DNA of 64,000 nt from Ramlibacter henchirensis (GTDB lineage: Bacteria; Pseudomonadota; Gammaproteobacteria; Burkholderiales; Burkholderiaceae_C): contig NZ_SMLM01000004.1 in the NCBI RefSeq assembly GCF_004682015.1, forward strand, positions 62,001 to 126,000. The letters are read 5' to 3'. A program made the position numbers and the translations under genes. Positions within the stretch are counted from its first letter, which is position 1, and each line of letters starts with the position of its first letter. Shown here in pieces: positions 53,869 through 63,915 of the stretch. Below the pieces are notes generated by a model. The model was given only the letters and a program-made list of their open reading frames with translations, did not search any database and was not told the DNA's origin.

Positions 53869-54645
53869 TCAAAGCAGGAACGGCTTGCCCGTGACAGGCG
53901 TTGTCGCCACCGCCATCTCCTGCCTGGCCATCACCCCTGCTTCCCAGGCGATCCGGCCGGCCTCCACCGCGAGCTTGAAAGCGCGGGCCATGGCCACCGG
54001 GTCGTGCGCTTGGGACACCGCGGAATTCACCAGCACGGCGTCGTAGCCGAGTTCCATCGCCTGCACCGCATCGCGCGGCGAACCGATGCCGGCATCGACG
54101 ACGAGCGGCACGCCAGGCAGCCGCGCACGCAACGTCCGCAGCGCCGAAGGATTGAGCAGTCCCTGCCCCGAGCCGATCGGCGCGCCCCAGGGCATGAGGA
54201 TGCGGCAGCCGGCGTCGAGCAGGCGGTTGCAGGTGACCAGGTCGTCGGTGCAGTACGGGAAGACCTCGAAGCCGTCGCGCGCCAGTTCGCGTGCGGCCTC
54301 CACCAGCTCCCAAGGGTCGGGCTGAAGCGTGTACTCGTCGCCCACGACTTCCAGCTTGATCCAGTTCGTGTTGAACATCTCGCGCGCCATGCGGGCCAGG
54401 GTCACGGCCTCGCGTGCCGTCGTGCAGCCCGCGGTGTTGGGCAGCAGGTGCGCGCCGGTTTCCTGGATCAGACGATAGAAGTCGCCGGGCTCGCCGCCAC
54501 CGGACAGCTGGCGTCTCAGCGCGACGGTGATGACCTGGGTGCCGGAAGCGCGCACCGCCTCGCGCAGCACCTGCGGCGAGGGATAGCCGGCGGTGCCGAG
54601 GAAGAAGCGGCTCTCGAGGTCGCGGCCGCCGATGGAGAAAGCCAT
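53869..54645 (-). CDS. thiG: Thiazole synthase ThiG
   Basis: ThiG forms the thiazole phosphate ring from deoxyxylulose phosphate, dehydroglycine and ThiS thiocarboxylate. The 258-residue TIM-barrel protein has the conserved [18 protein letters not shown] (69-86), [10 protein letters not shown] with its active-site Lys (near 93-102), and the phosphate-binding [14 protein letters not shown] and [21 protein letters not shown] regions. It is the last gene of the thiamine operon and lies 4 bases after the thiS stop. Confidence 0.97.
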
Positions 54646-54649
54646 GGTG

Positions 54650-54853
54650 TCAGCCTCCGGTGATGGGTTCGAACGTCAGCACGATGTCGCCATCGCGCAA
54701 GGTGCGCTGCGCGCGGTGGTCGCGCGGCACGAAGTCGCCGTTGACCGCGGTGGCCAGCGATGCCGGCGGGCGGCCGAGCGATTCCAGCAGGCCGGCGAGG
54801 GTCTCGCCTTCGCGCAGCTGCAGCCGCTCCCTGTTCAGTTGGATCTCGATCAT
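54650..54853 (-). CDS. thiS: Sulfur carrier protein ThiS
   Basis: ThiS carries the sulfur for thiazole synthesis as a C-terminal thiocarboxylate. The 67-residue protein has a ubiquitin-like fold and ends with the required Gly-Gly (FEPITGG). The AVNGDFVPR stretch at 38-46 is conserved. Its start overlaps the stop of thiO by ATGA, and it is followed by thiG. It is shorter than any adjacent open frame but fits family length exactly. Confidence 0.95.
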
Positions 54854-55875
54854 GCAAGGCACTCCAGGGCCGACTCCACGAGGCCGGGCGCGATCAGCCA
54901 GCCGTGGCGGAACAGGCCATTGATGCGGACCAGCCCGGGGGCGTGTTCCAGCAGCGGTTGATTGTCCGGCAGCGCCGGACGCAGGTTGCTTTCGGTGTGG
55001 ACGATGCGCGCCTCGGCCAGCGGCGGCAGGATGCTGCACGCCGCCGCGAGCAGTTCCACCGTGCTGCGCACCGACACGGGCGAGCGGTCCTCACCCTCGA
55101 TCTCGCTGGCGCCCACCACCACGATGTCGGGCTCGCGCGGCACAAGGTACACGCGATGGCGCGCATGCAGCAGCCGCACCGGCCGGCGCAGGCCCAGGCC
55201 GGGGGCCTGCAGCCAGAAGATCTCGCCGCGCACGCCGCGCACCGGAAGCTGCGGCCGCGCGCCGAGGCCGCGCACGTCGAAGACCCAGTCGTAGCGCTCG
55301 TCGCCGGTCGCCGTCCTCAGGCATCGCGGCAGCACTTCCGAAACGGAGCTGCTCCAGTGCCACGTGGTGTCGAGCGCGCCGGCCTGCAAGGCCTGCATGG
55401 CCTGCACGGTGTGGATCTGCCCTTCGCCGGGCAGCAGCCAGGCATGCAGCCCGGCCTTCAACGAAGGTTCGAGCTGCGCGAGTTCCTTCGGCGCGAGGTC
55501 CTGCGCCTGGTGCCCGGCCGGCGCCTTGCGGGCCAGCAGGTCCACGACACGCCGCGCGGCGCCGAGGTCCTCGCGATGCGCGACCAGCAGGCTGCCATCG
55601 CAGCGGAATTCCACGGGCTGCGGCAGGCGGCGCAGGATCCCGGGCCAGAGCTCGATCGAGCGCTGCCCCCAGCGGAACACGCGCTCGTCGGCGGTTTCGA
55701 GTTCGGCCAGGGGGCTCAGCATGCCGGCCGCGGTCCATCCCGTTGCGCCGCGCTCCTGCGGCCCGGAGGCCGGATCGTGCACATGCACCTCGTGCCCCGA
55801 CGCGCCGAGCTGCACGGCGAGCACGCGGCCAAGCAGGCCTGCGCCCGCGACGCCGATGCGCAGGCGCGACGTCAT
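54850..55875 (-). CDS. thiO: Glycine oxidase ThiO
   Basis: ThiO oxidises glycine to dehydroglycine for thiazole synthesis. The 341-residue FAD protein begins with the binding loop IGVAGAGLLGRVLAVQLGASG (near 6-26), has GATGWTAAGMLSPLAELE around 43-60, and ends NGLFRHGWLIAPGLVESAL, all characteristic of the glycine oxidase/MnmC-type fold. It overlaps both thiE and thiS by ATGA and is the fourth gene from the 3' end of the operon. Confidence 0.93.
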   Translation of the reverse strand: MTSRLRIGVAGAGLLGRVLAVQLGASGHEVHVHDPASGPQERGATGWTAAGMLSPLAELETADERVFRWGQRSIELWPGILRRLPQPVEFRCDGSLLVAHREDLGAARRVVDLLARKAPAGHQAQDLAPKELAQLEPSLKAGLHAWLLPGEGQIHTVQAMQALQAGALDTTWHWSSSVSEVLPRCLRTATGDERYDWVFDVRGLGARPQLPVRGVRGEIFWLQAPGLGLRRPVRLLHARHRVYLVPREPDIVVVGASEIEGEDRSPVSVRSTVELLAAACSILPPLAEARIVHTESNLRPALPDNQPLLEHAPGLVRINGLFRHGWLIAPGLVESALECLA

Positions 55876-56942
55876 GCGTCGGCCTCCAGCGAGGGATGCG
55901 GCAGGCGCGGCGCGGCTCGCGGATCGTGTTCGGCGCGCCCTTGCGCGAAGGCCTCCTGCAACGCCGGCACGGTCCGCCGCGGATCGTCGCCCAGACCGCG
56001 CAGCACGCAGACCGCGGATGCGCCGGCGCGCGCGGTTTCGCGCACCTGCCGCGCATCGAGGATGCCGCCGATCGCCACCACGGGGCAGCCGGCCTCTCGC
56101 GTCCACCAACCGAGGTTGTCCAGTCCCTGCGGACGCCAGGGCATGTCCTTGGTCGTCGTCGGCCACACCGGGCCGCAGGCCACGTACGCCGGCGCGAGCG
56201 AACGGGCGCGGCACAGCTCCCACACGGCATGCGAACTCACGCCCAGGGCGAGCCCGGTGGCGGCGAATTCGCGCAGGCCGCGCTCGCCCAGGGCGCCGAG
56301 ATCCTCCTGGCCCAGGTGAACCGTGCTCGCGCCGAGTTCGGCCGCGAGGCGCCAGTGGTCGTTGATCCAGAGGGTGGCGCCGGCATCGCGGGCCGCGGCG
56401 AGTCCGTCGCGCAGCGACTGCCGCAGTCGAGCGTCCCAGGCTGCGTCGGCATCGGCCGGCCGCTTGATGCGCAGCTGGGCCATGGCGATGCCCGCGTCGA
56501 GCACGCCACGGAGCAGATCGAGCGAACCGACGATGGCATAGATGCCGTCGACCGGCGCTCGCGCACCGAGCGGTTCGGGCACTGCGTCGCCCCAGCCCAG
56601 GGTCGGCAAGCGCGCGTCGTCCCGCCGCAGCGCCAGCAACGCGGCATCGGCCGCGACGAAGCCGTCGGCCAGGAAGCGGGACCAACGTAGTGCGACATCG
56701 TGTGAACCGACTGAGCCCCCGCGGACTTCGCCGCGCGCATGCGGCGCGTCGAGCCACGCGGATTCGCCTTGCAGCAGCAGCACCGCACGCGCGCCCGCAT
56801 CCCGCAATGACGCGGCGAGCGCAGGCTTCGCAACCCCTGCACTCGCGCCGGCGCGTGCCCGCGCTTCATCGACCGTGAGCTGCTCGATCGGAGCGCCTGG
56901 TCCGCGTGCAAGCAGCAGGCAAGTGCGATCAGGCACCGTCAT
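55872..56942 (-). CDS. thiE: Thiamine-phosphate synthase ThiE with an N-terminal extension
   Basis: ThiE couples HMP-PP with thiazole phosphate to give thiamine phosphate. Residues from about 132 (GIYAIVGSLDLLRGVLDAGI) match ThiE, with AQLRIKR, WINDHWRLAAELGASTVHLGQE with its diphosphate-binding residues, and CGPVWPTTTKD near 265. The 130 residues before that have no clear family and are rich in Ala and Arg (RARAGASAGVAKPALAASL). The whole protein is 356 residues compared with about 210 for the usual enzyme. The ATG at 56942 is coupled to the SDR gene stop (ATGA). Confidence 0.9.
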   Translation of the reverse strand: MTVPDRTCLLLARGPGAPIEQLTVDEARARAGASAGVAKPALAASLRDAGARAVLLLQGESAWLDAPHARGEVRGGSVGSHDVALRWSRFLADGFVAADAALLALRRDDARLPTLGWGDAVPEPLGARAPVDGIYAIVGSLDLLRGVLDAGIAMAQLRIKRPADADAAWDARLRQSLRDGLAAARDAGATLWINDHWRLAAELGASTVHLGQEDLGALGERGLREFAATGLALGVSSHAVWELCRARSLAPAYVACGPVWPTTTKDMPWRPQGLDNLGWWTREAGCPVVAIGGILDARQVRETARAGASAVCVLRGLGDDPRRTVPALQEAFAQGRAEHDPRAAPRLPHPSLEADA

Positions 56943-57706
56943 CGCATCACCCTCCCGCCATCGACGATCAGCACCTGGCCGGTGATGAAGCCGCTCGCCG
57001 GTGACGCCAGGAAGACCACCGGTCCTGCCACGTCCCCGGGTCTCGCCAGCCGGCGCAATGGCGTCGCCGCCATGATCGCTTCGCGGAACGACGCGCGGGT
57101 CGCTTCGCTGCCCGCCGTCGGATGCACGAGGCCGGGCGCGACGCAGTTGACGCGCACGCCCTGCGGCCCAACCTCGGCCGCGAGCTGGCGCGAGAAGCCC
57201 ACCAGCGCCGACTTCGCGGTGCCGTAGTCGTGGTACGGCACGACCGGGTCCTCCACCAGGTCGCTCACGAGGTTCACGATGGCGCCCTGCGCGCGCAGGC
57301 GCAGGTGCGGCAGCGCGGCCTGGCAGACGTGGAACGCGGCGCCGACCGAGCCTTCGAACTGCCGCAGGTAGTCGGGCCAGCCGAGGTCGGCGAAGGTCGC
57401 GCGCCGCTCCGGGTCGAACGCGTACGGCGCGAAGGCGTTGTTGACCACCGCATCGAGTCGGCCGAACTCCTGCACCGTGCGCTCCACCAGCGAGCGGGCC
57501 TGCTCCGGGACGGTCGCGTCCGCCTGCAGCGCGAGCGCGTCGCCGCCGGCTTCGCGGCAGGCCTGCACCACGGCCTGCGCTGCATCCGCCTGGCGCAGGT
57601 AGTTCACGGCGACCGCCGCGCCTTGTGCGGCGAATGCCCGGGCGATGGCCGCGCCGATGCCGCGCGATGCGCCCGTGACCAGCACCACCCTGCCCTTCAT
57701 GTCCAT
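56939..57706 (-). CDS. Short-chain dehydrogenase/reductase in the thiamine operon
   Basis: The 255-residue protein is a classical SDR: cofactor loop TGASRGIG at 11-18, NNAFAP around 95 for the NNAG region, a catalytic Tyr-Lys pair in YGTAK near 157-161, and the C-terminal ITGQVLIVDGG. Arg15 next to the glycine loop suggests NADPH. The start has AAGGA 7 bases upstream. It lies between the binding-protein gene and thiE with ATGA coupling to thiE. Its substrate is unknown; an aldehyde from the LuxC-like enzyme is an attractive possibility. Confidence 0.92.
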   Translation of the reverse strand: MDMKGRVVLVTGASRGIGAAIARAFAAQGAAVAVNYLRQADAAQAVVQACREAGGDALALQADATVPEQARSLVERTVQEFGRLDAVVNNAFAPYAFDPERRATFADLGWPDYLRQFEGSVGAAFHVCQAALPHLRLRAQGAIVNLVSDLVEDPVVPYHDYGTAKSALVGFSRQLAAEVGPQGVRVNCVAPGLVHPTAGSEATRASFREAIMAATPLRRLARPGDVAGPVVFLASPASGFITGQVLIVDGGRVMR

Positions 57707-57717
57707 GCCTTGGTCCT

Positions 57718-58710
57718 TCAATGTCCGGGCAGCAGGTCGGTCGCGACCACCTGCGCCATGTCGAGCCGCTGCTTGACGAGGCCGAGCTGGCGGTACACGT
57801 CTGCCGCCCTCTGCAGCGACGCGACATCCATCGCGCCGAGGCCCTGCCGTTTCGTCAGGTCCGAGACGCTCGCGGCATTGCGCAGCCGGATCACCTCGAG
57901 GTTGAGTGCAGGATCGCTGCCGTCGATGGCGCGCCGCGCGGCCACGGTCGCGGCCTCCTGCGGCTGCGCCAGCATCCATGCCGCCGCATCGCGGTACGCG
58001 CGCACGAAGCGGCGCAGCACGTCCTTGCGGGCGCGCAGAGTTTCCTCTCGTACCACGAACAGGTCGCTCGAGACGTTGAGGAACTGGCCGACTTCGATGA
58101 CCTCCACCTCGCCCAGCCCGCGGCGGCGGCCGACCAGCAGGCCGGTGTCGGTGGCCGCGGTCGCATCGACCTGGCCCTGCAGCAGCGGCGCGAAGTTCAG
58201 CAGGCCAGTGACGACGATGGTGACGTCGGATTCCGTCAGCCCCACCTGGTGCAGCAGCAGTTGCAGGTTCTGCCGCGTCCCGCTCGCGAGGCTGTAGACC
58301 CCGATGCGCTTGCCCTTGAGGTCCGCCGGGCCGCGAATGCCGCTCTTCTTGAGCGACACCACGTTGAACACGTTCTGCGGATAGATGTCGTAGATGGCCC
58401 GCAGCTTCTCGCCCTTGTCCAGCGCCGCGAACAGCGAGCCGGGATCGGTGAACGCGACATCGGCCTGGCCGCTCAGGATGTTTCGGATCGCGTCGCCTCC
58501 GCCCGCTCCGGGCACGTACTCCAGCGCCACACCCTGCGAGCGGTAGAAGCCCTTTTCCTCGTCCACCAGCAGCGGCGTAACTTCCGTAATGGGCTTGCTC
58601 CAGCCGGCCACGACGAGCCGGTCGCGTTGCTGCGCGATTGCGGCGGCGGGCAGCAGGCCGAGGGCGGCGAGCGCGAGGAGGTGTCGGCGCGAAGTCATCA
58701 TCGTTCTCAT
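57718..58710 (-). CDS. ThiY/NMT1-like ABC transporter substrate-binding protein
   Basis: The 330-residue periplasmic protein belongs to the NMT1/THI5-like (SsuA/ThiY) family that binds pyrimidine thiamine precursors or similar compounds. It has a signal peptide ([20 protein letters not shown]) followed by RLVVAGWSKPITEVTPLLVDEE near 28-50, GAGGGDAIRNILSGQADVAF near 70-90 and a GVYSLASGTRQNLQLLL turn. ATG 58710 overlaps the permease stop by ATGA. It forms one importer with the two genes before it. Confidence 0.92.
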   Translation of the reverse strand: MRTMMTSRRHLLALAALGLLPAAAIAQQRDRLVVAGWSKPITEVTPLLVDEEKGFYRSQGVALEYVPGAGGGDAIRNILSGQADVAFTDPGSLFAALDKGEKLRAIYDIYPQNVFNVVSLKKSGIRGPADLKGKRIGVYSLASGTRQNLQLLLHQVGLTESDVTIVVTGLLNFAPLLQGQVDATAATDTGLLVGRRRGLGEVEVIEVGQFLNVSSDLFVVREETLRARKDVLRRFVRAYRDAAAWMLAQPQEAATVAARRAIDGSDPALNLEVIRLRNAASVSDLTKRQGLGAMDVASLQRAADVYRQLGLVKQRLDMAQVVATDLLPGH

Positions 58711-59450
58711 GGTTGGTAGGGACGCAGCAGGCGTCGTTCGAGCAGCAGGGTGGCCTGGTAGGCCGCGAGGCCGAGCAGGGAGACGAGGACCAGCACCGCG
58801 AACATCAGCGGCGTGTCCATGCTCCCTTGCGCGGCGATGATCAACGCGCCCAGCCCCTGGCTCGCGCCGATGAATTCGCCGACAACGGCGCCCACGAGCG
58901 CCAGCACGACAGCGATGCGCAGGCCCGCCAGGATGGAAGGCAGCCCGGTGGGCAGCTTCAGGCGCAGGAGCGTCTGGCGCCGGCTCGCGCCCAGCAGCCG
59001 GAACAGCTCCAATCGCTCCGGCGGCACCTGCGCCAGGCCGGTGAGCGTGTTCTCCATCAGCGGGAAGAAGCAGATGAGCGCCGTGATGACGACCGTGGAG
59101 GTCAGGCCGAACCCGAACCAGACGACGAACAGCGGCATGAGCGCGAGCTTCGGGACCACCTGGCTCACGACGACATAGGGCATGAGGATGCGGCGCAACG
59201 CGGGAAGCTCGGCCAGAAGCACGCCGGCGCCGAATCCGAACCCGCAGCCCACGGCCAGTCCGAGCAGCAGCTCGACGCCGGTGGCACGCAGGTGCGGCCA
59301 GAAGTAGCCGCTGGCCAGGCCCTTCCACAAGGATGCGACGACGGCGCTGGGCGGCGGCAGCACCAGCGCCGACAGCGCGAAGGCGCGCGCGCCCGCTTCC
59401 CAGAGCGCGAGCAGCACGACCAGCAGCAACAGCCCGGCGGCGCGTTTCAT
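58707..59450 (-). CDS. ABC transporter permease (ThiX-like)
   Basis: The 247-residue inner-membrane protein has about six helices and the EAA loop LELFRLLGASRRQTLLRLKLP (split near 148-168), the ATPase contact. It is of the SsuC/ThiX type. It overlaps the ATPase gene before it and the binding-protein gene after it by ATGA. It is the channel of the thiamine-operon importer; the transported compound is probably a thiamine-pyrimidine fragment, inferred from context. Confidence 0.92.
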   Translation of the reverse strand: MKRAAGLLLLVVLLALWEAGARAFALSALVLPPPSAVVASLWKGLASGYFWPHLRATGVELLLGLAVGCGFGFGAGVLLAELPALRRILMPYVVVSQVVPKLALMPLFVVWFGFGLTSTVVITALICFFPLMENTLTGLAQVPPERLELFRLLGASRRQTLLRLKLPTGLPSILAGLRIAVVLALVGAVVGEFIGASQGLGALIIAAQGSMDTPLMFAVLVLVSLLGLAAYQATLLLERRLLRPYQP

Positions 59451-60184
59451 GCGGGCACCTCTTGCATGCCGAGCGCCTCGCGCACACGCGCGCACGCCGC
59501 GCCGAAGGCACCGCTGTCTCGTACGCGGGCATCGCCCTCGATCGCGAATGTGCGCACAAGGCAGCCGCCCGCCAACACGGACACTCGATCCCCGAGGAAC
59601 ACCGCCTCTCCGATGTCGTGCGTTACGAAGAGCACCGTGGTTCCGCGGGAACGCGCCAGGCGCAGCAGGTCGCGTTGGAGCTCCTCCCGCGTGATCGCGT
59701 CCAGCGACGCGAAGGGTTCGTCGAGCAGCAGCAAGTGCGGCTGCAGCAGCAGCGCCCGCGCGAGCGCGGTCCGACTTTGCTGGCCGCCCGAGAGCTGGCG
59801 CGGATAGCGGTCCGCGTATGCGGTGAGGCCGAGCTGCGACAGCAGCGCGGCGCACGCAGCGCGGTCCTGCGCGCCCGGGCGCCGCTGCAGGGACGCGGGC
59901 AGCAGCACGTTGTCGTTCACGCTCAGCCAGTCCAGCAGCGTCGGCGCCTGGAACACGAATCCCAGAGGCGTTCCGCCCGGCGAAGGCACGCCTTCCAGGA
60001 GCACGCGGCCCTGCGTCGGCGCAAGCAGGCCCGCCGCCAGTTTGAGCAGGCTGGTCTTGCCGCAGCCGCTGCGGCCCACGAGGCAATGCACTTCGCCCGT
60101 CGCCAGCGACAGATCGACGCCCTGCACCACGGGCCCATGGCCGGGGTAGGCAAAACCGACGCTCTCGAATCGGAGGAAGCTCAT
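59447..60184 (-). CDS. ABC transporter ATP-binding protein (ThiZ-like)
   Basis: The 245-residue ATPase has Walker A GRSGCGKTS near 37-45, the Q-loop GFVFQAPTLLDWLSVNDNV near 74-92, signature LSGGQQSRTALARAL near 130-144, Walker B LLLLDEPFASLD and H-loop VTHDIGEAV. The SsuB/TauB/ThiZ subfamily fits best. The start overlaps the LuxC-like gene stop by ATGA. Confidence 0.93.
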   Translation of the reverse strand: MSFLRFESVGFAYPGHGPVVQGVDLSLATGEVHCLVGRSGCGKTSLLKLAAGLLAPTQGRVLLEGVPSPGGTPLGFVFQAPTLLDWLSVNDNVLLPASLQRRPGAQDRAACAALLSQLGLTAYADRYPRQLSGGQQSRTALARALLLQPHLLLLDEPFASLDAITREELQRDLLRLARSRGTTVLFVTHDIGEAVFLGDRVSVLAGGCLVRTFAIEGDARVRDSGAFGAACARVREALGMQEVPA

Positions 60185-61653
60185 GGACGACCCTCCTGCC
60201 AACTCGGCTCCAGGCGGTCGGCCGCGGCCTCGGCGGACTGCTCGATCTCCACCATGCGCACCAGGTCCGCCAGGTTGAAGCGGCCGTCGTGGTGCCACCC
60301 GGCCTCGGGCTGCGCCATGCCGCCGATCGGCGCGATGCGCGTGACGCCGGCTTGCCCGAGCAAGTGGCCGAGCCGGAACAGCTCCTCGGACGTGGTGGCG
60401 AGGCCCGCCGTCTGCAGGAAGGCCCCATGCGGCTCGAGCTGCGCAACCACTTCGTCGAGTGAATCGACGGCGCTGACCGCCAGCGAGCGATGGCCCGCCG
60501 TCGGCGCGAGCGGCTGCGGGGTGTCGCGGAACACCACGGACCAGCCGGAGCCCTCTCCACCCAGCAGCTCGCCGCCTGGTGCACCGAGCGCCTGCCATTC
60601 GGCGGCCTGCCGCCAGTCGGCCAGCGCCGCCGCCTCTTCCAGCGAAAGCGCACGAGGCGGATGGCGGTGCGACAGGTTGGCCAGTTCCGCCGCGAGATAC
60701 TGCGCGAACTCTCGCGGCTGCACCGCGCCGCCGCGTTCGACGTAAAGCACGTGGGGCGAGTAGCAGCCCTGCTGCTCGTATCGCACCATGTCCAAGGCGG
60801 CGAGGCGCGCTGTGGCCGGGCCACGCTGACGGTCGAGCGCCGCGCGGCCGACCATCGCCAAGCCGATCTTGTGGCCGTAGGCTAGGAAGCGCGTCGTCAC
60901 CGGCAGCTCGTCGCGCACTGCGCGCAGGGCGGCGTTGCCACCGTAAGCCAGCACCGTGTCGGCTTCGCCGTACAGCGCCTTCGCGGGACCGGCCTGCCCG
61001 CCCTTCCACCAGACCATCGCCAGGCAGTCGGCCAGCGGCGGATGCACTTCGGCCAGCACGCGCGCTGCCACGCTGGCGAAGACCGGCTCCGCGCTCGGCA
61101 GCTTGCCGACGTTACCCGCTTTCACGAGCAGGCCGCAGACCAGGCTCCACAGCGGCAGGCCCGGGACGTTGCCCGCCCACAGGTGCGCGAGCAGCGCCGG
61201 CCCGAACGCGCGAACCGAGCCGCCCTTCGTCGCCGGCTGGAAGCCGTCCAGAACCTTGGGATTGGGGAAGTCCTGCGCGAGGAAGCGGCGCAGCTGCGGC
61301 GCGCGGAAGGTGTGCAGGTAGCTGGTCAGGCCGAGCCGAACCATCTCGGCATCGCAGCCGGTGACGATGGGCAGCAGCTCGTCGAGCTCGCGGCGCGCCG
61401 GATCCTGCGGATCGAGCAGACGGGCCACGGCGCGCGCGACGATGTCGATGATCTGGTCGACGTACAACGGCTGCAGCCTGTCGCGCGCAGCCTGACGCAC
61501 GCGGCGGGACAGCGCTGTCAGCGCAGCTTCGTCCAGCAGCGGCACCTCGATCGCAACGCGCCGGCCGTGCGCCTCGAACGGCAGCACGTGCCAGTCCACC
61601 TGGCCCGCATCGAGGCCCGGCAGGTGGCCGGCGCGCCAGCGCTGCTCGTTCAT
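60181..61653 (-). CDS. LuxC-family acyl-(CoA/protein) reductase
   Basis: LuxC-type enzymes use NADPH to reduce an acyl thioester to an aldehyde. The 490-residue protein has the aldehyde-dehydrogenase-like core with LWAGNVPGLPLWSLVCGLLVKAGN (near 158-182), VLAYGGNAAL near 235-245 and the probable catalytic Cys297 in YEQQGCYSPH, where LuxC enzymes have a QxC(Y/F)SP motif. It is coupled by ATGA to the LuxE-like gene before it and the ATPase gene after it. Placement in a TPP-riboswitch operon is unusual and suggests a thiamine-related acid as the substrate. Confidence 0.88.
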   Translation of the reverse strand: MNEQRWRAGHLPGLDAGQVDWHVLPFEAHGRRVAIEVPLLDEAALTALSRRVRQAARDRLQPLYVDQIIDIVARAVARLLDPQDPARRELDELLPIVTGCDAEMVRLGLTSYLHTFRAPQLRRFLAQDFPNPKVLDGFQPATKGGSVRAFGPALLAHLWAGNVPGLPLWSLVCGLLVKAGNVGKLPSAEPVFASVAARVLAEVHPPLADCLAMVWWKGGQAGPAKALYGEADTVLAYGGNAALRAVRDELPVTTRFLAYGHKIGLAMVGRAALDRQRGPATARLAALDMVRYEQQGCYSPHVLYVERGGAVQPREFAQYLAAELANLSHRHPPRALSLEEAAALADWRQAAEWQALGAPGGELLGGEGSGWSVVFRDTPQPLAPTAGHRSLAVSAVDSLDEVVAQLEPHGAFLQTAGLATTSEELFRLGHLLGQAGVTRIAPIGGMAQPEAGWHHDGRFNLADLVRMVEIEQSAEAAADRLEPSWQEGRP

Positions 61654-62750
61654 GGCCGCGCCGCCTCCAGGAATTCCTGCACCGCGAGCGAACAGCCCTT
61701 GGCCTCGGCGCCCTCGACGCGGCCCAGCAGCAGGAACCCACCATCCACCGCGACACCCATGTCCTCGGTGAGGATCGCCACGGCCGAATTGAAGTTGGCC
61801 AGGTCGCAGTGGGCGAGAACGCCCCGTTCGCCAGGAGGGCGTTCGCGGCCGGTGAGCGGATCCAGCACGCGGGTGCGGATCCAGTGCGGCCCCGACTTGA
61901 CCGACGGCACCACGGCATTGCCCGCGTCGTAGAACTGCGAGCTGAGCTCGGTCATGCCGTACATGTTGATGCACAGGTTGCGTGGCACGCCGAAGGCACG
62001 CGCGAGAGCGTCGTAGAAATCGTCCGGAGGCAGCTCGCGCGCCTGGCCCTTGTAGCCGCCGGTGTCGAGCAGGCGGCTGCCGGGCGGGAGCTGGAAGGCA
62101 AGCCCGCGCGAAGCCATTGCATCGAGCAGGTGCACGAAGCTAAAGGTGGCGCCGAGCACCGCCACCGATTCGCCACGCTCCACGGCTTGCTTGAGCGCGT
62201 CGCAGAACCCATCGACAACGAGGCCGTGCTTCGCGCTCACCCACGAGCGGCTGCCTTGCGTGCCGAACGTGCGAGCGGCGAGGGAGAGATAGCGCGCGAG
62301 CGAGGAGTTCGGAAGTTCCTTCTCATCCGGGAACAGTGTCAGCATCGGCGTGCGCTCCCGCGTGTGCATGAAGCGTTGCGCGAAGTTGCGGCGCATCGAC
62401 AAGTCCCACAGCTCGATGGTCGGATGGTGGTTGCGGCCCTTGACGTCGGCGCGCGTCGTGCCGCTCGTCATGAATACGCGCTCGCATTCGGCGGGCGACA
62501 TGCAGCTGAGCGTGGTCTCCTTGAAGCCGCTGATCGGCACGGCCGGTATGTCGCGCCACCCGCTCACGCGCCGCGGTGTGACACCGCGCCGCTGGCAGAA
62601 GCGGCGGAACGTCTCGCCATGCTCGTACTGGAAGGCGAACACCTCGGCCGCCATGGCGTCGAACTCCGCATCGGTGCAGCCCTCCTGGCCAACGAAGACG
62701 AGCAGCCGCTCCACGAGCCGCTGCATGGGCTCGGGCAGGTGCCGGCTCAT
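61650..62750 (-). CDS. LuxE-family acyl-protein synthetase
   Basis: LuxE-type proteins activate a carboxylic acid with ATP and hold it as a thioester on a C-terminal cysteine for LuxC. The 366-residue protein has the AMP loop FMTSGTTRADVKGRNHH with Ser96-Gly-Thr-Thr, the MYGMTELSSQFYD A5-like region around 234-246, and Cys353 in KGCSLAVQEFL 14 residues from the end, like the acyl-carrying Cys of LuxE. The gene is coupled by ATGA to thiD and to the LuxC-like gene. The natural acid is unknown; see the findings. Confidence 0.88.
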   Translation of the reverse strand: MSRHLPEPMQRLVERLLVFVGQEGCTDAEFDAMAAEVFAFQYEHGETFRRFCQRRGVTPRRVSGWRDIPAVPISGFKETTLSCMSPAECERVFMTSGTTRADVKGRNHHPTIELWDLSMRRNFAQRFMHTRERTPMLTLFPDEKELPNSSLARYLSLAARTFGTQGSRSWVSAKHGLVVDGFCDALKQAVERGESVAVLGATFSFVHLLDAMASRGLAFQLPPGSRLLDTGGYKGQARELPPDDFYDALARAFGVPRNLCINMYGMTELSSQFYDAGNAVVPSVKSGPHWIRTRVLDPLTGRERPPGERGVLAHCDLANFNSAVAILTEDMGVAVDGGFLLLGRVEGAEAKGCSLAVQEFLEAARP

Positions 62751-63592
62751 GGCAGCGGCCTCAGTTGCATCGGCACCGGTGCATGGGCGTGGTTGAGCGG
62801 GCCGCTGCCTGCGCCGGTGCGCACTTTCGCGCCCGCCTCGAGCGCGGCCCGAACATAGGCGCGGGCGCGGGCCACGGCGTCCTCCAGACCGGCCCCGAGC
62901 GCGATCCACGCTGCGATCGCGCTGGACAGCGTGCATCCGGTTCCGTGGGTGTTGCGCGTGGGAATGCGCGGGTCGCGGAACCAGCGGGGCGGAGCGCCTT
63001 GCACGAGCAGCAGGTCGCTGACCATCTCCCCTTCCAGGTGGCCGCCCTTGAGCAGGACCGCGCGCGCGCCCATCCCAAGCAGCTGCTGCGCAGCGGCCTC
63101 CATGTCGGATTCATTGCGAAGCGGCCGGTCGACCAGCATGGCGGCCTCGTCGAGGTTGGGCGTGACGAGCAGGGCGCGCGGGAAAAGTTCGCGCACCAGC
63201 GAAGCCACGGCTTGCCGATCGATCAGCACCGCGCCGCTGGTGGCCACCATCACGGGATCGAGCACCACCTGGCGCAGCCCGTGCCGGTCCAGCGCCGCGG
63301 CCACGGTCTGCACGGTGGGCGCCGAGTGCAGCATGCCGATCTTCACGGCGTCGATGCCGATGTCCTGCGCCACCGCGTCGATCTGGTCGGACAGGATGTC
63401 GAGCGGCACGGCGTGGATCGAGCGCACGCCCAGCGTGTTCTGCGCCGTCAACGCGGTGATCGCGCTCATGCCGTAGCAGCCCAGCGCCGAGAAGGTTTTC
63501 AGGTCGGCCTGGATGCCGGCGCCGCCGCCCGAGTCCGAGCCGGCGATCGTCAGCACGCGCGGATAGCGCATGGTCGTCGCGACGCCGTTCAT
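62747..63592 (-). CDS. thiD: HMP kinase / HMP-phosphate kinase ThiD
   Basis: ThiD phosphorylates hydroxymethylpyrimidine twice to HMP-PP. The 281-residue ribokinase-fold protein has VLTIAGSDSGGGAGIQADLKT (13-33), the DPVMVATSG stretch near 110-118, TPNLDEA around 143 and the terminal NTHGTGCTLSSAIA with the catalytic Asp replaced region GTGC near 215-222. The first gene of the operon, it starts 3 bases into the stop of a 12-codon leader. The LuxE-like gene overlaps its end by ATGA. Confidence 0.96.
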   Translation of the reverse strand: MNGVATTMRYPRVLTIAGSDSGGGAGIQADLKTFSALGCYGMSAITALTAQNTLGVRSIHAVPLDILSDQIDAVAQDIGIDAVKIGMLHSAPTVQTVAAALDRHGLRQVVLDPVMVATSGAVLIDRQAVASLVRELFPRALLVTPNLDEAAMLVDRPLRNESDMEAAAQQLLGMGARAVLLKGGHLEGEMVSDLLLVQGAPPRWFRDPRIPTRNTHGTGCTLSSAIAAWIALGAGLEDAVARARAYVRAALEAGAKVRTGAGSGPLNHAHAPVPMQLRPLP

Positions 63593-63627
63593 GGACGGCT
63601 CCGCGGAGATGAGGCAGGCGGGGACAT
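63589..63627 (-). CDS. 12-codon leader ORF upstream of thiD
   Basis: An ATG at 63627 follows a near-perfect ribosome site (AAGGAGG, 4 bases away). It reads MSPPASSPRSRP and stops at TGA, which overlaps the thiD ATG as ATGA. It lies between the TPP riboswitch and thiD. It may be translated and coupled to thiD. The riboswitch could control access to this strong site. The peptide itself probably has no function. Confidence 0.55.
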   Translation of the reverse strand: MSPPASSPRSRP

Positions 63628-63699
63628 CGGACCTCCTTCGGTGGCTGCTGGCCGCTGCTCCGAAGGACGGTCGCCCCCGGCTGTGGAGCCGCGGGCTGG

Positions 63700-63778
63700 T
63701 GCTCTTCTTACGCCGGTCTGAACCGGTTCAAGTTCACGGGTCTGGATCTCAGCACGCTGGCGCGTACACCCCGGAGCG
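63700..63778 (-). ncRNA. TPP riboswitch (THI element)
   Basis: The minus strand carries the conserved THI elements in order: CTCCGGGGTG at the 5' end, then GCTGAGA, ACCCGTGAACTTGAACCGG, CAGACCGGCGTAAGAAG, and GAGC that pairs with the 5' GCTC in P1. The layout closely matches the E. coli thiM aptamer. It lies about 105 bases before thiD on the same strand, so TPP controls the whole operon. Confidence 0.96.
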
Positions 63779-63915
63779 AAGAGGATTGTGACACGGACCC
63801 GTGGCAGGCGCTCCGCGCGCAGCCACTGCCGCACGGCACAGCCTCACGAACGCGCGTTGAGCACGTGCTTCTTCCCTTGCCGACTCGGCTGCGGAGAAGG
63901 CCTGGAAGATGACGC

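Follow-up and report, generated by a model that had tools for sequence, protein, structure and literature searches.

A TPP riboswitch-controlled LuxE-LuxC-SDR cassette in Ramlibacter henchirensis as a probable salvage route to the pyrimidine half of thiamine

A stretch of 64,000 nucleotides from Ramlibacter henchirensis (contig NZ_SMLM01000004.1, positions 62,001 to 126,000; in the following called the window) carries a thiamine operon in which genes for a LuxE-type acyl-protein synthetase, a LuxC-type acyl reductase, an ATP-binding cassette (ABC) importer and a short-chain dehydrogenase/reductase (SDR) lie between thiD and thiE, behind a thiamine pyrophosphate (TPP) riboswitch. Judged from sequence comparisons, this cassette probably serves the riboswitch-controlled salvage of the pyrimidine half of thiamine from an imported carboxylated pyrimidine, thereby standing in for the phosphomethylpyrimidine synthase ThiC. 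The importer would take up the carboxylated compound, most likely 4-amino-2-methylpyrimidine-5-carboxylate, which is a recorded breakdown product of thiamine (Neal and Pearson, 1964, cited as reference 144 in PMC7780320). LuxE would use ATP to activate the carboxylate, with transfer of the acyl group onto Cys353, LuxC would take over the acyl group on Cys297 and reduce it with NADPH to the aldehyde, and the SDR would convert the aldehyde to hydroxymethylpyrimidine (HMP). ThiD would then turn HMP into HMP pyrophosphate (HMP-PP), which ThiE would couple to the thiazole still made de novo by ThiO, ThiS, and ThiG. What the substrate is, in which direction it is converted and how each reaction proceeds are predicted from the enzyme families.

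Results

Absence of ThiC and co-occurrence with ThiG

The gene content and order of the operon, its riboswitch, the conserved catalytic residues, the absence of ThiC and the co-occurrence pattern were observed directly. A search for ThiC yielded no match in the R. henchirensis genome to which the window belongs (99.88% complete), the same search being positive in 13 of 14 control genomes, and ThiG is kept in this genome though ThiC is missing. Across 59 Ramlibacter genomes, ThiC was present in 14 and a strong ThiG match in 41 (weak matches were dropped), and LuxC matches were obtained for 36, of which 34 were close (at least 53% identity) and two distant (29 and 31%). Cross-tabulation of the three genes placed 26 of these 59 genomes in the group with ThiG and LuxC and without ThiC, two in the group with ThiG only, six in the group with all three genes and seven in the group with ThiG and ThiC and without LuxC; the remainder comprised 15 genomes with none of the three, one with ThiC alone (partial, at a contig end) and two with LuxC alone, which are 69% and 75% complete. 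For one of the two genomes with ThiG only (G056), the contig ends directly after riboswitch and thiD; the other one (G057) has the order thiD-thiE-thiO-thiS-thiG without the cassette and a riboswitch-controlled homolog of CytX elsewhere. The seven-gene order from thiD to the SDR gene was complete in 30 of the 33 other close Ramlibacter loci; in the remaining three, the contig breaks off within the block. Since this order recurs across the genus, the gene arrangement is not due to chance.

Another type of gene was found at the riboswitch locus in 8 of 8 Ramlibacter genomes without ThiG, ThiC, and LuxC from which such a locus was fetched (each at least 99% complete), namely a relative of TonB-dependent receptors. 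The TPP riboswitch loci concerned, L086:2907-4994, L088 to L094 and L076:6456-8549, belong to these eight genomes and to G057, with Pfam run on two of them. The receptors at these loci are likely to serve the uptake of thiamine or a precursor.

A survey of the family covered 300 genomes at least 95% complete, five of them from Ramlibacter. LuxC was called at scores above 580 bits, and seven weaker distant matches, all in ThiG-containing genomes, were dropped. LuxC of the cassette type was present in 31 of the 300 genomes. Fourteen genomes contained ThiG without ThiC, nine of which had LuxC (eight outside Ramlibacter, across six genera) and the other five a CytX homolog. ThiG and ThiC were both present in 210 genomes, 22 of them with LuxC, and LuxC occurred in none of the 76 genomes without ThiG (70 also lacking ThiC, six having it). 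Among the ThiG-containing genomes, the Fisher p-value for LuxC against ThiC state was 7.5e-6 with kinship ignored; as the surveyed genomes are related, this value is a description and not a phylogeny-corrected test. The facts that each of the 14 family genomes with ThiG and without ThiC has either LuxC or a CytX homolog, and that LuxC is found in none of the 76 without ThiG, suggest that the cassette most likely supplies HMP. Together with the absence of ThiC from the R. henchirensis genome, they support the class of function that an initial annotation had assigned to the genes in the window, i.e., salvage of a thiamine precursor.

CytX and the TenA family were searched for in 36 chosen genomes: 23 cassette carriers without ThiC (15 of the 26 ThiG-containing Ramlibacter carriers, namely those at least 95% complete, plus eight from the family), five with ThiG and neither ThiC nor LuxC, five with ThiC and without a close LuxC, and three lacking all three genes. 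Ten genomes had CytX matches, distributed over these four groups as 3 of 23, 5 of 5, 2 of 5 and 0 of 3, and a TPP aptamer was found upstream of eight of the ten homologs. The gene order is riboswitch-cytX-thiO-thiS-thiG-thiE in G109 and cytX-thiG-thiE in G261, where no aptamer was found. It therefore appears that CytX, a predicted HMP transporter, occupies the place of the cassette in other thi operons. A passage in PMC5874261 names CytX as HMP transporter on the same argument, its presence in ThiC-less genomes. Since ThiG stays, ThiC is lost and CytX can substitute, the product of the cassette would be HMP; the compound it starts from is probably a pyrimidine in which a carboxyl group replaces the hydroxymethyl group. 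The TenA family was not found in 16 of the 23 ThiC-less carriers tested. In the R. henchirensis genome, a TenA-family gene is located at G000:C1:313997-314635, away from the only TPP aptamer of this genome.

Spread beyond the family

Named genomes were scanned with a LuxC alignment and the best 80 of 360 relatives were kept, the loci thus being picked by LuxC and including metagenome-assembled genomes (MAGs). Carriers among these 80 include Variovorax, Achromobacter, Bordetella, Acidovorax, Comamonas, Thauera, Polaromonas, and Bosea as well as alphaproteobacterial MAGs. According to tblastn, luxE immediately precedes luxC in 80 of 80 loci. The order luxE-luxC-ATPase-permease-binding protein-SDR was found in 46 loci and the same order with thiD in front in 25, while three alphaproteobacterial MAGs (L165, L174, and L175) have luxE-luxC-SDR only and six loci are incomplete (short or at a contig end). 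In two of these three MAGs, a luciferase-like monooxygenase gene lies divergently beside the riboswitch and the trio (L165:2066-3256 and L175:7473-8576, both on the minus strand). A LuxC tree of 95 rows implies 12 or more switches in ThiC state; this was a quick tree with long outgroup branches, of which only the change count, and not the root, was used. In this tree, LuxC of L151, a record titled Pantoea sp. 18069, stands beside an Acidovorax sequence, and the record is possibly mislabelled or a mixed assembly.

LuxC matches on plasmids were obtained in 28 records, with identities of 27 to 59%, the hosts including Azospirillum, Pantoea, Pseudomonas silvicola, Priestia megaterium, Niallia taxi, Lactiplantibacillus plantarum, Levilactobacillus brevis, and Sphingobium. 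Seven of the eight plasmid loci fetched (L212 to L219), with Azospirillum, Pantoea, Pseudomonas, Priestia, Niallia, and Lactiplantibacillus as hosts, contain LuxE, LuxC, and SDR with a TPP aptamer ahead, which scored over the Rfam gathering score in six and 49.0 bits in Priestia; the eighth is a distant Sphingobium LuxC without aptamer. Variovorax sp. WS11 also carries its copy of the cassette on a plasmid, pVarWS11_2 (L108). The plasmid copies in Variovorax, Bacillota, Azospirillum, and Pantoea suggest horizontal spread. In the Pseudomonas silvicola copy (L215:6937-10215), the luxE-luxC-sdr matches fall into several pieces, and this copy may be decayed or contain sequencing errors. Whether the pair is confined to R. 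henchirensis had been set as a check beforehand; the answer is clearly negative, as Beta-, Alpha-, and Gammaproteobacteria and also Bacillota have the pair behind TPP riboswitches.

TPP riboswitch and leader

The TPP riboswitch that had been proposed at the head of the operon was matched by the Rfam model (Table 1). It was not listed by the default scan of the window because its score lies just below the gathering score of 54.3 bits; no other TPP match of the genome reaches E ≤ 0.001. All 59 Ramlibacter genomes have a TPP match at this threshold, one of them weak. For the 80 related loci, a covariance model built from 21 Ramlibacter aptamers was used, which detected a same-strand aptamer upstream in 77; the other three (L104, L116, and L128) are cut by contig ends. 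The first gene after the aptamer is luxE in 51 and thiD in 26 of the 77 loci, at a median gap of about 60 bases. Rfam's own TPP model reached at least its gathering score in five of six related loci checked. At the three distant LuxC loci (27 to 31% identity; Sphingobium and two Ramlibacter), no aptamer was present within the stretches examined, and the surroundings of the two from Ramlibacter showed no thi gene.

Between the aptamer and thiD of the window, the leader can form a putative stem over the Shine-Dalgarno sequence, which is what translational control would need. Of 78 leaders scanned by script, 35 gave a Shine-Dalgarno stem of at least 6 bp and 41 gave none, so that the stem is put forward for the window alone. 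The leader also contains a 12-codon open frame (63627-63589, minus strand) that follows a strong Shine-Dalgarno sequence and ends in the ATGA at the thiD start. This frame is present in the nearest relative (L036) as well, and L041 and L052 seem, by eye, to begin directly with thiD.

Family membership and conserved residues of LuxE, LuxC, and SDR

LuxC of the window scored 284.5 bits on PF05893 (cut-off 21) and LuxE 79.1 bits on PF04443 (cut-off 24.9). The equivalog models NF052251 and NF052244 for the bioluminescence fatty acid reductase, which stand for long-chain substrates, gave 64.5 bits against 750 and 66.5 bits against 550, respectively. The residues named in the initial annotation as key, Cys353 in LuxE and Cys297 in LuxC, proved correct: they align with the kGCSL motif of LuxE and the QQaCfS motif of LuxC in the solved complex 7xc6, and are invariant in 102 of 102 and 103 of 103 distinct sequences, respectively, window included. 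They are also kept in nine further LuxE and 11 further LuxC sequences. As the acyl cysteines are conserved in every distinct full-length LuxE and LuxC examined, both enzymes are expected to act on a carboxylate by thioester chemistry. For the SDR, 97 sequences were compared, and at least 97% of them retain the residues of the TGxxxGIG and YxxxK motifs.

Importer and its exchange

The importer had been described as similar to ThiXYZ. This applies only insofar as the binding protein belongs to the NMT1/THI5 family: the protein is weakly akin to THI5 (4h6d) and to 3ix1, which binds formyl aminomethylpyrimidine (FAMP), 3ix1 being a weak match by profile (E 4.1e-6). The type of importer around LuxE-LuxC-SDR varies between an ABC importer, as in the Azospirillum and Priestia loci, a nucleobase-family permease (L216 and L217) and no importer visible on the contig (L165, L174, L175, L213, and L218), the two Pantoea loci having luxE-luxC-sdr alone. 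The order is riboswitch-permease-luxE-luxC-sdr in L. plantarum and two riboswitches-thiW-permease-luxE-luxC-sdr in Niallia, and the permease belongs to the Xan_ur (nucleobase) family in both. As the trio persists through these exchanges of importer, LuxE-LuxC-SDR forms the constant core, and the replacement of the ABC importer by a nucleobase-type permease suggests a small heterocycle as substrate. On the Niallia megaplasmid, two tandem TPP aptamers (L217:4579-4875) lie ahead of thiW. The precursor transporter ThiW, whose substrate is a prediction, thus adjoins the trio in this organism; it is predicted to serve the thiazole side.

Layout of the operon

Following the aptamer, the minus strand of the window reads thiD-luxE-luxC-ATPase-permease-binding protein-SDR-thiE-thiO-thiS-thiG (Table 1). 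All genes that had been named are present in the order and leftward direction claimed. The reported coupling by ATGA was found as a 4-base overlap at eight of ten gene junctions and does not apply to binding protein/SDR and thiS/thiG. Assignment of thiS rests on blastp and position, the copy of a relative matching PF02597. ThiE has about 130 to 140 extra N-terminal residues (56942-56523, minus strand) outside its TMP-TENI domain, with no Pfam match; a remnant of ThiD inside this extension was considered and found unsupported (E 0.47).

Table 1. Positions of the operon features within the window and the evidence for their assignment.
Feature	Position	Strand	Evidence
TPP riboswitch aptamer heading the operon	63688..63783	-	cmscan RF00059, 52.3 bits, E 2.2e-9 (601-base scan)
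Putative expression platform, 8-bp stem 63667-63660 with 63641-63634, covering the Shine-Dalgarno sequence	63634..63667	-	exact complement and minimum-energy fold
thiD, HMP/HMP phosphate kinase	62747..63592	-	PF08543 1.2e-94; TIGR00097 322.6 bits, cut-off 204.95
LuxE-type acyl-protein synthetase, 366 aa, C353	61650..62750	-	PF04443 3.9e-22; 7xc6_E 1.6e-18
LuxC-type acyl reductase, 490 aa, C297	60181..61653	-	PF05893 1.7e-84; 7xc6_A 8.1e-13
ABC transporter ATPase	59447..60184	-	PF00005
ABC transporter permease	58707..59450	-	PF00528
NMT1/THI5-like periplasmic binding protein, N terminus signal-peptide-like (by eye)	57718..58710	-	PF09084 2.1e-48
SDR, proposed aldehyde reductase	56939..57706	-	PF13561 3.5e-59
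thiE, thiamine phosphate synthase	55872..56942	-	PF02581 1.8e-35, residues 141-316
thiO, FAD-dependent oxidase	54850..55875	-	PF01266 6e-37
thiS, sulfur carrier, 67 aa	54650..54853	-	translation; position; best blastp match of relatives' same-place genes
thiG, thiazole synthase	53869..54645	-	PF05690 5.4e-104

Discussion

The cassette shares features with several known systems. With the LuxC-LuxE fatty acid reductase of luminous bacteria (7xc6) it has both families and both acyl-cysteine sites in common; unlike the latter, it is under control of a TPP riboswitch, has an SDR and an importer as partners and is not accompanied by LuxA, LuxB, or LuxD, none of which is among the operon genes (Pfam scan; thiS by position). 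CytX resembles it in its place within thi operons, in the TPP aptamer (8 of 10) and in the argument from ThiC absence, but is predicted to import ready-made HMP, whereas the cassette adds three enzymes. The ThiXYZ/YlmB/TenA system salvages FAMP and aminomethylpyrimidine (AmMP) and involves hydrolytic steps. It is comparable with regard to the ABC importer with an NMT1-type binding protein and to the pyrimidine salvage feeding ThiD that is proposed for the cassette; in contrast to its hydrolytic chemistry, an ATP- and NADPH-driven reduction is proposed for the cassette, and TenA was not found in most of the ThiC-less carriers tested. Finally, ThiC leads to the product branch proposed for the cassette, but by de novo radical synthesis, and is absent from the R. 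henchirensis genome.

Several observations weigh against a cassette that stands in for ThiC. Six of the 34 Ramlibacter cassette carriers and 22 of the 31 carriers in the family also have ThiC. The same applies to 42 of 50 named cassette genomes (the ThiC search covered 50 of the 80 loci, omitting 23 that overlap the genus survey as well as L104, L116, L150, L154, L163, L171, and L173), so that the cassette is not confined to genomes lacking ThiC and, outside Ramlibacter, would mostly supplement ThiC instead of replacing it. CytX homologs also occur in two of the five ThiC-containing genomes without a close LuxC; moreover, all CytX matches score below the curated cut-off, and the function of bacterial CytX is itself a prediction. 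A TenA-family match was obtained in seven of the 23 ThiC-less carriers (one of them weak), including R. henchirensis, and a CytX homolog in three. Since TenA or CytX is found in some ThiC-less carriers, other pyrimidine salvage, from FAMP or an aminopyrimidine, is possible in those.

This leads to the question of whether the importer might bring in HMP, FAMP, or AmMP in the manner of ThiXYZ/TenA, with LuxE-LuxC-SDR doing a side job. The NMT1/THI5 family of the binding protein, its weak kinship to the FAMP-binding 3ix1 and the TenA-family protein of R. henchirensis would fit this explanation, yet it appears unlikely given that the TenA family was not found in 16 of the 23 ThiC-less carriers tested and that riboswitch and trio persist at loci lacking a visible importer (L165, L174, L175, and the Pantoea loci L213 and L218), these loci having been chosen by LuxC. 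The latter lineages would in turn be in line with a trio that turns an acid unrelated to thiamine into the pyrimidine, as part of a de novo or semi-de novo pathway of a new kind, the importer being accessory. Such a route is highly unlikely, as reductive enzymes alone would presumably not build the ring and as the gene maps, in which most unlabelled neighbours were left unnamed, show only the cassette and thi genes recurring across lineages.

The same carboxylate-to-alcohol chemistry would also suit the salvage of the thiazole half or of whole oxidised thiamine, with thiazole-acetic acid or thiamine acetic acid, an oxidation product, being converted to the alcohol. However, ThiG is kept in 26 of the 28 ThiC-less cassette-containing Ramlibacter genomes, the other two being the incomplete ones, and LuxC is missing from all 76 family genomes without ThiG, which is the opposite of what this explanation predicts. 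It furthermore leaves the loss of ThiC unexplained, and ThiW, predicted to act on the thiazole side, adjoins the trio in Niallia. On account of the ThiG retention and the LuxC absence, thiazole or whole-thiamine salvage was rejected as quite improbable. Membership in the Pfam families, finally, would also be expected for ordinary fatty-acyl reductases that came under a TPP riboswitch by chance. The aptamer is, however, present at 77 of 77 loci reaching far enough upstream and across phyla, the scores lie far below the bioluminescence models, and the three distant LuxC loci have no aptamer within the stretches examined, with no thi gene found near the two in Ramlibacter. A fatty-aldehyde function in a chance neighbourhood was thus rejected, on the grounds of the aptamer and the model scores, as extremely improbable.

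Salvage of thiamine precursors as such is already known, and a LuxE/LuxC route to the thiamine pyrimidine was not found described. Among the open-access matches listed (titles, abstract starts and term counts; subscription journals and preprints lay outside), no paper ties LuxE/LuxC to thiamine. The main text of a riboswitch regulon survey (PMC3766115, supplements aside) does not contain 'LuxE', and a term look-up in PMC12442306 gave neither luxE nor luxC.

Salvage of a carboxylated pyrimidine by the cassette would have several consequences. A slightly better than even case can be made, from gene distribution and enzyme families, for a mobile, cross-phylum trio that reduces 4-amino-2-methylpyrimidine-5-carboxylate, an acid from thiamine breakdown that is not reckoned a usual B1 precursor, to HMP and allowed repeated loss of ThiC, the LuxC-LuxE of luminescence being one specialised user. 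At present, lack of ThiC in a genome is read as pyrimidine auxotrophy with a need for HMP, AmMP, or FAMP, and a passage of a coastal survey lists these as the three vitamers from which the pyrimidine part is salvaged (PMC10881298). If a carboxylated pyrimidine is indeed usable, this list of vitamers would be incomplete and some of the 'auxotrophs' would be mis-scored. Oxidised thiamine would then be no dead end, and LuxC-LuxE would gain a role outside light production.

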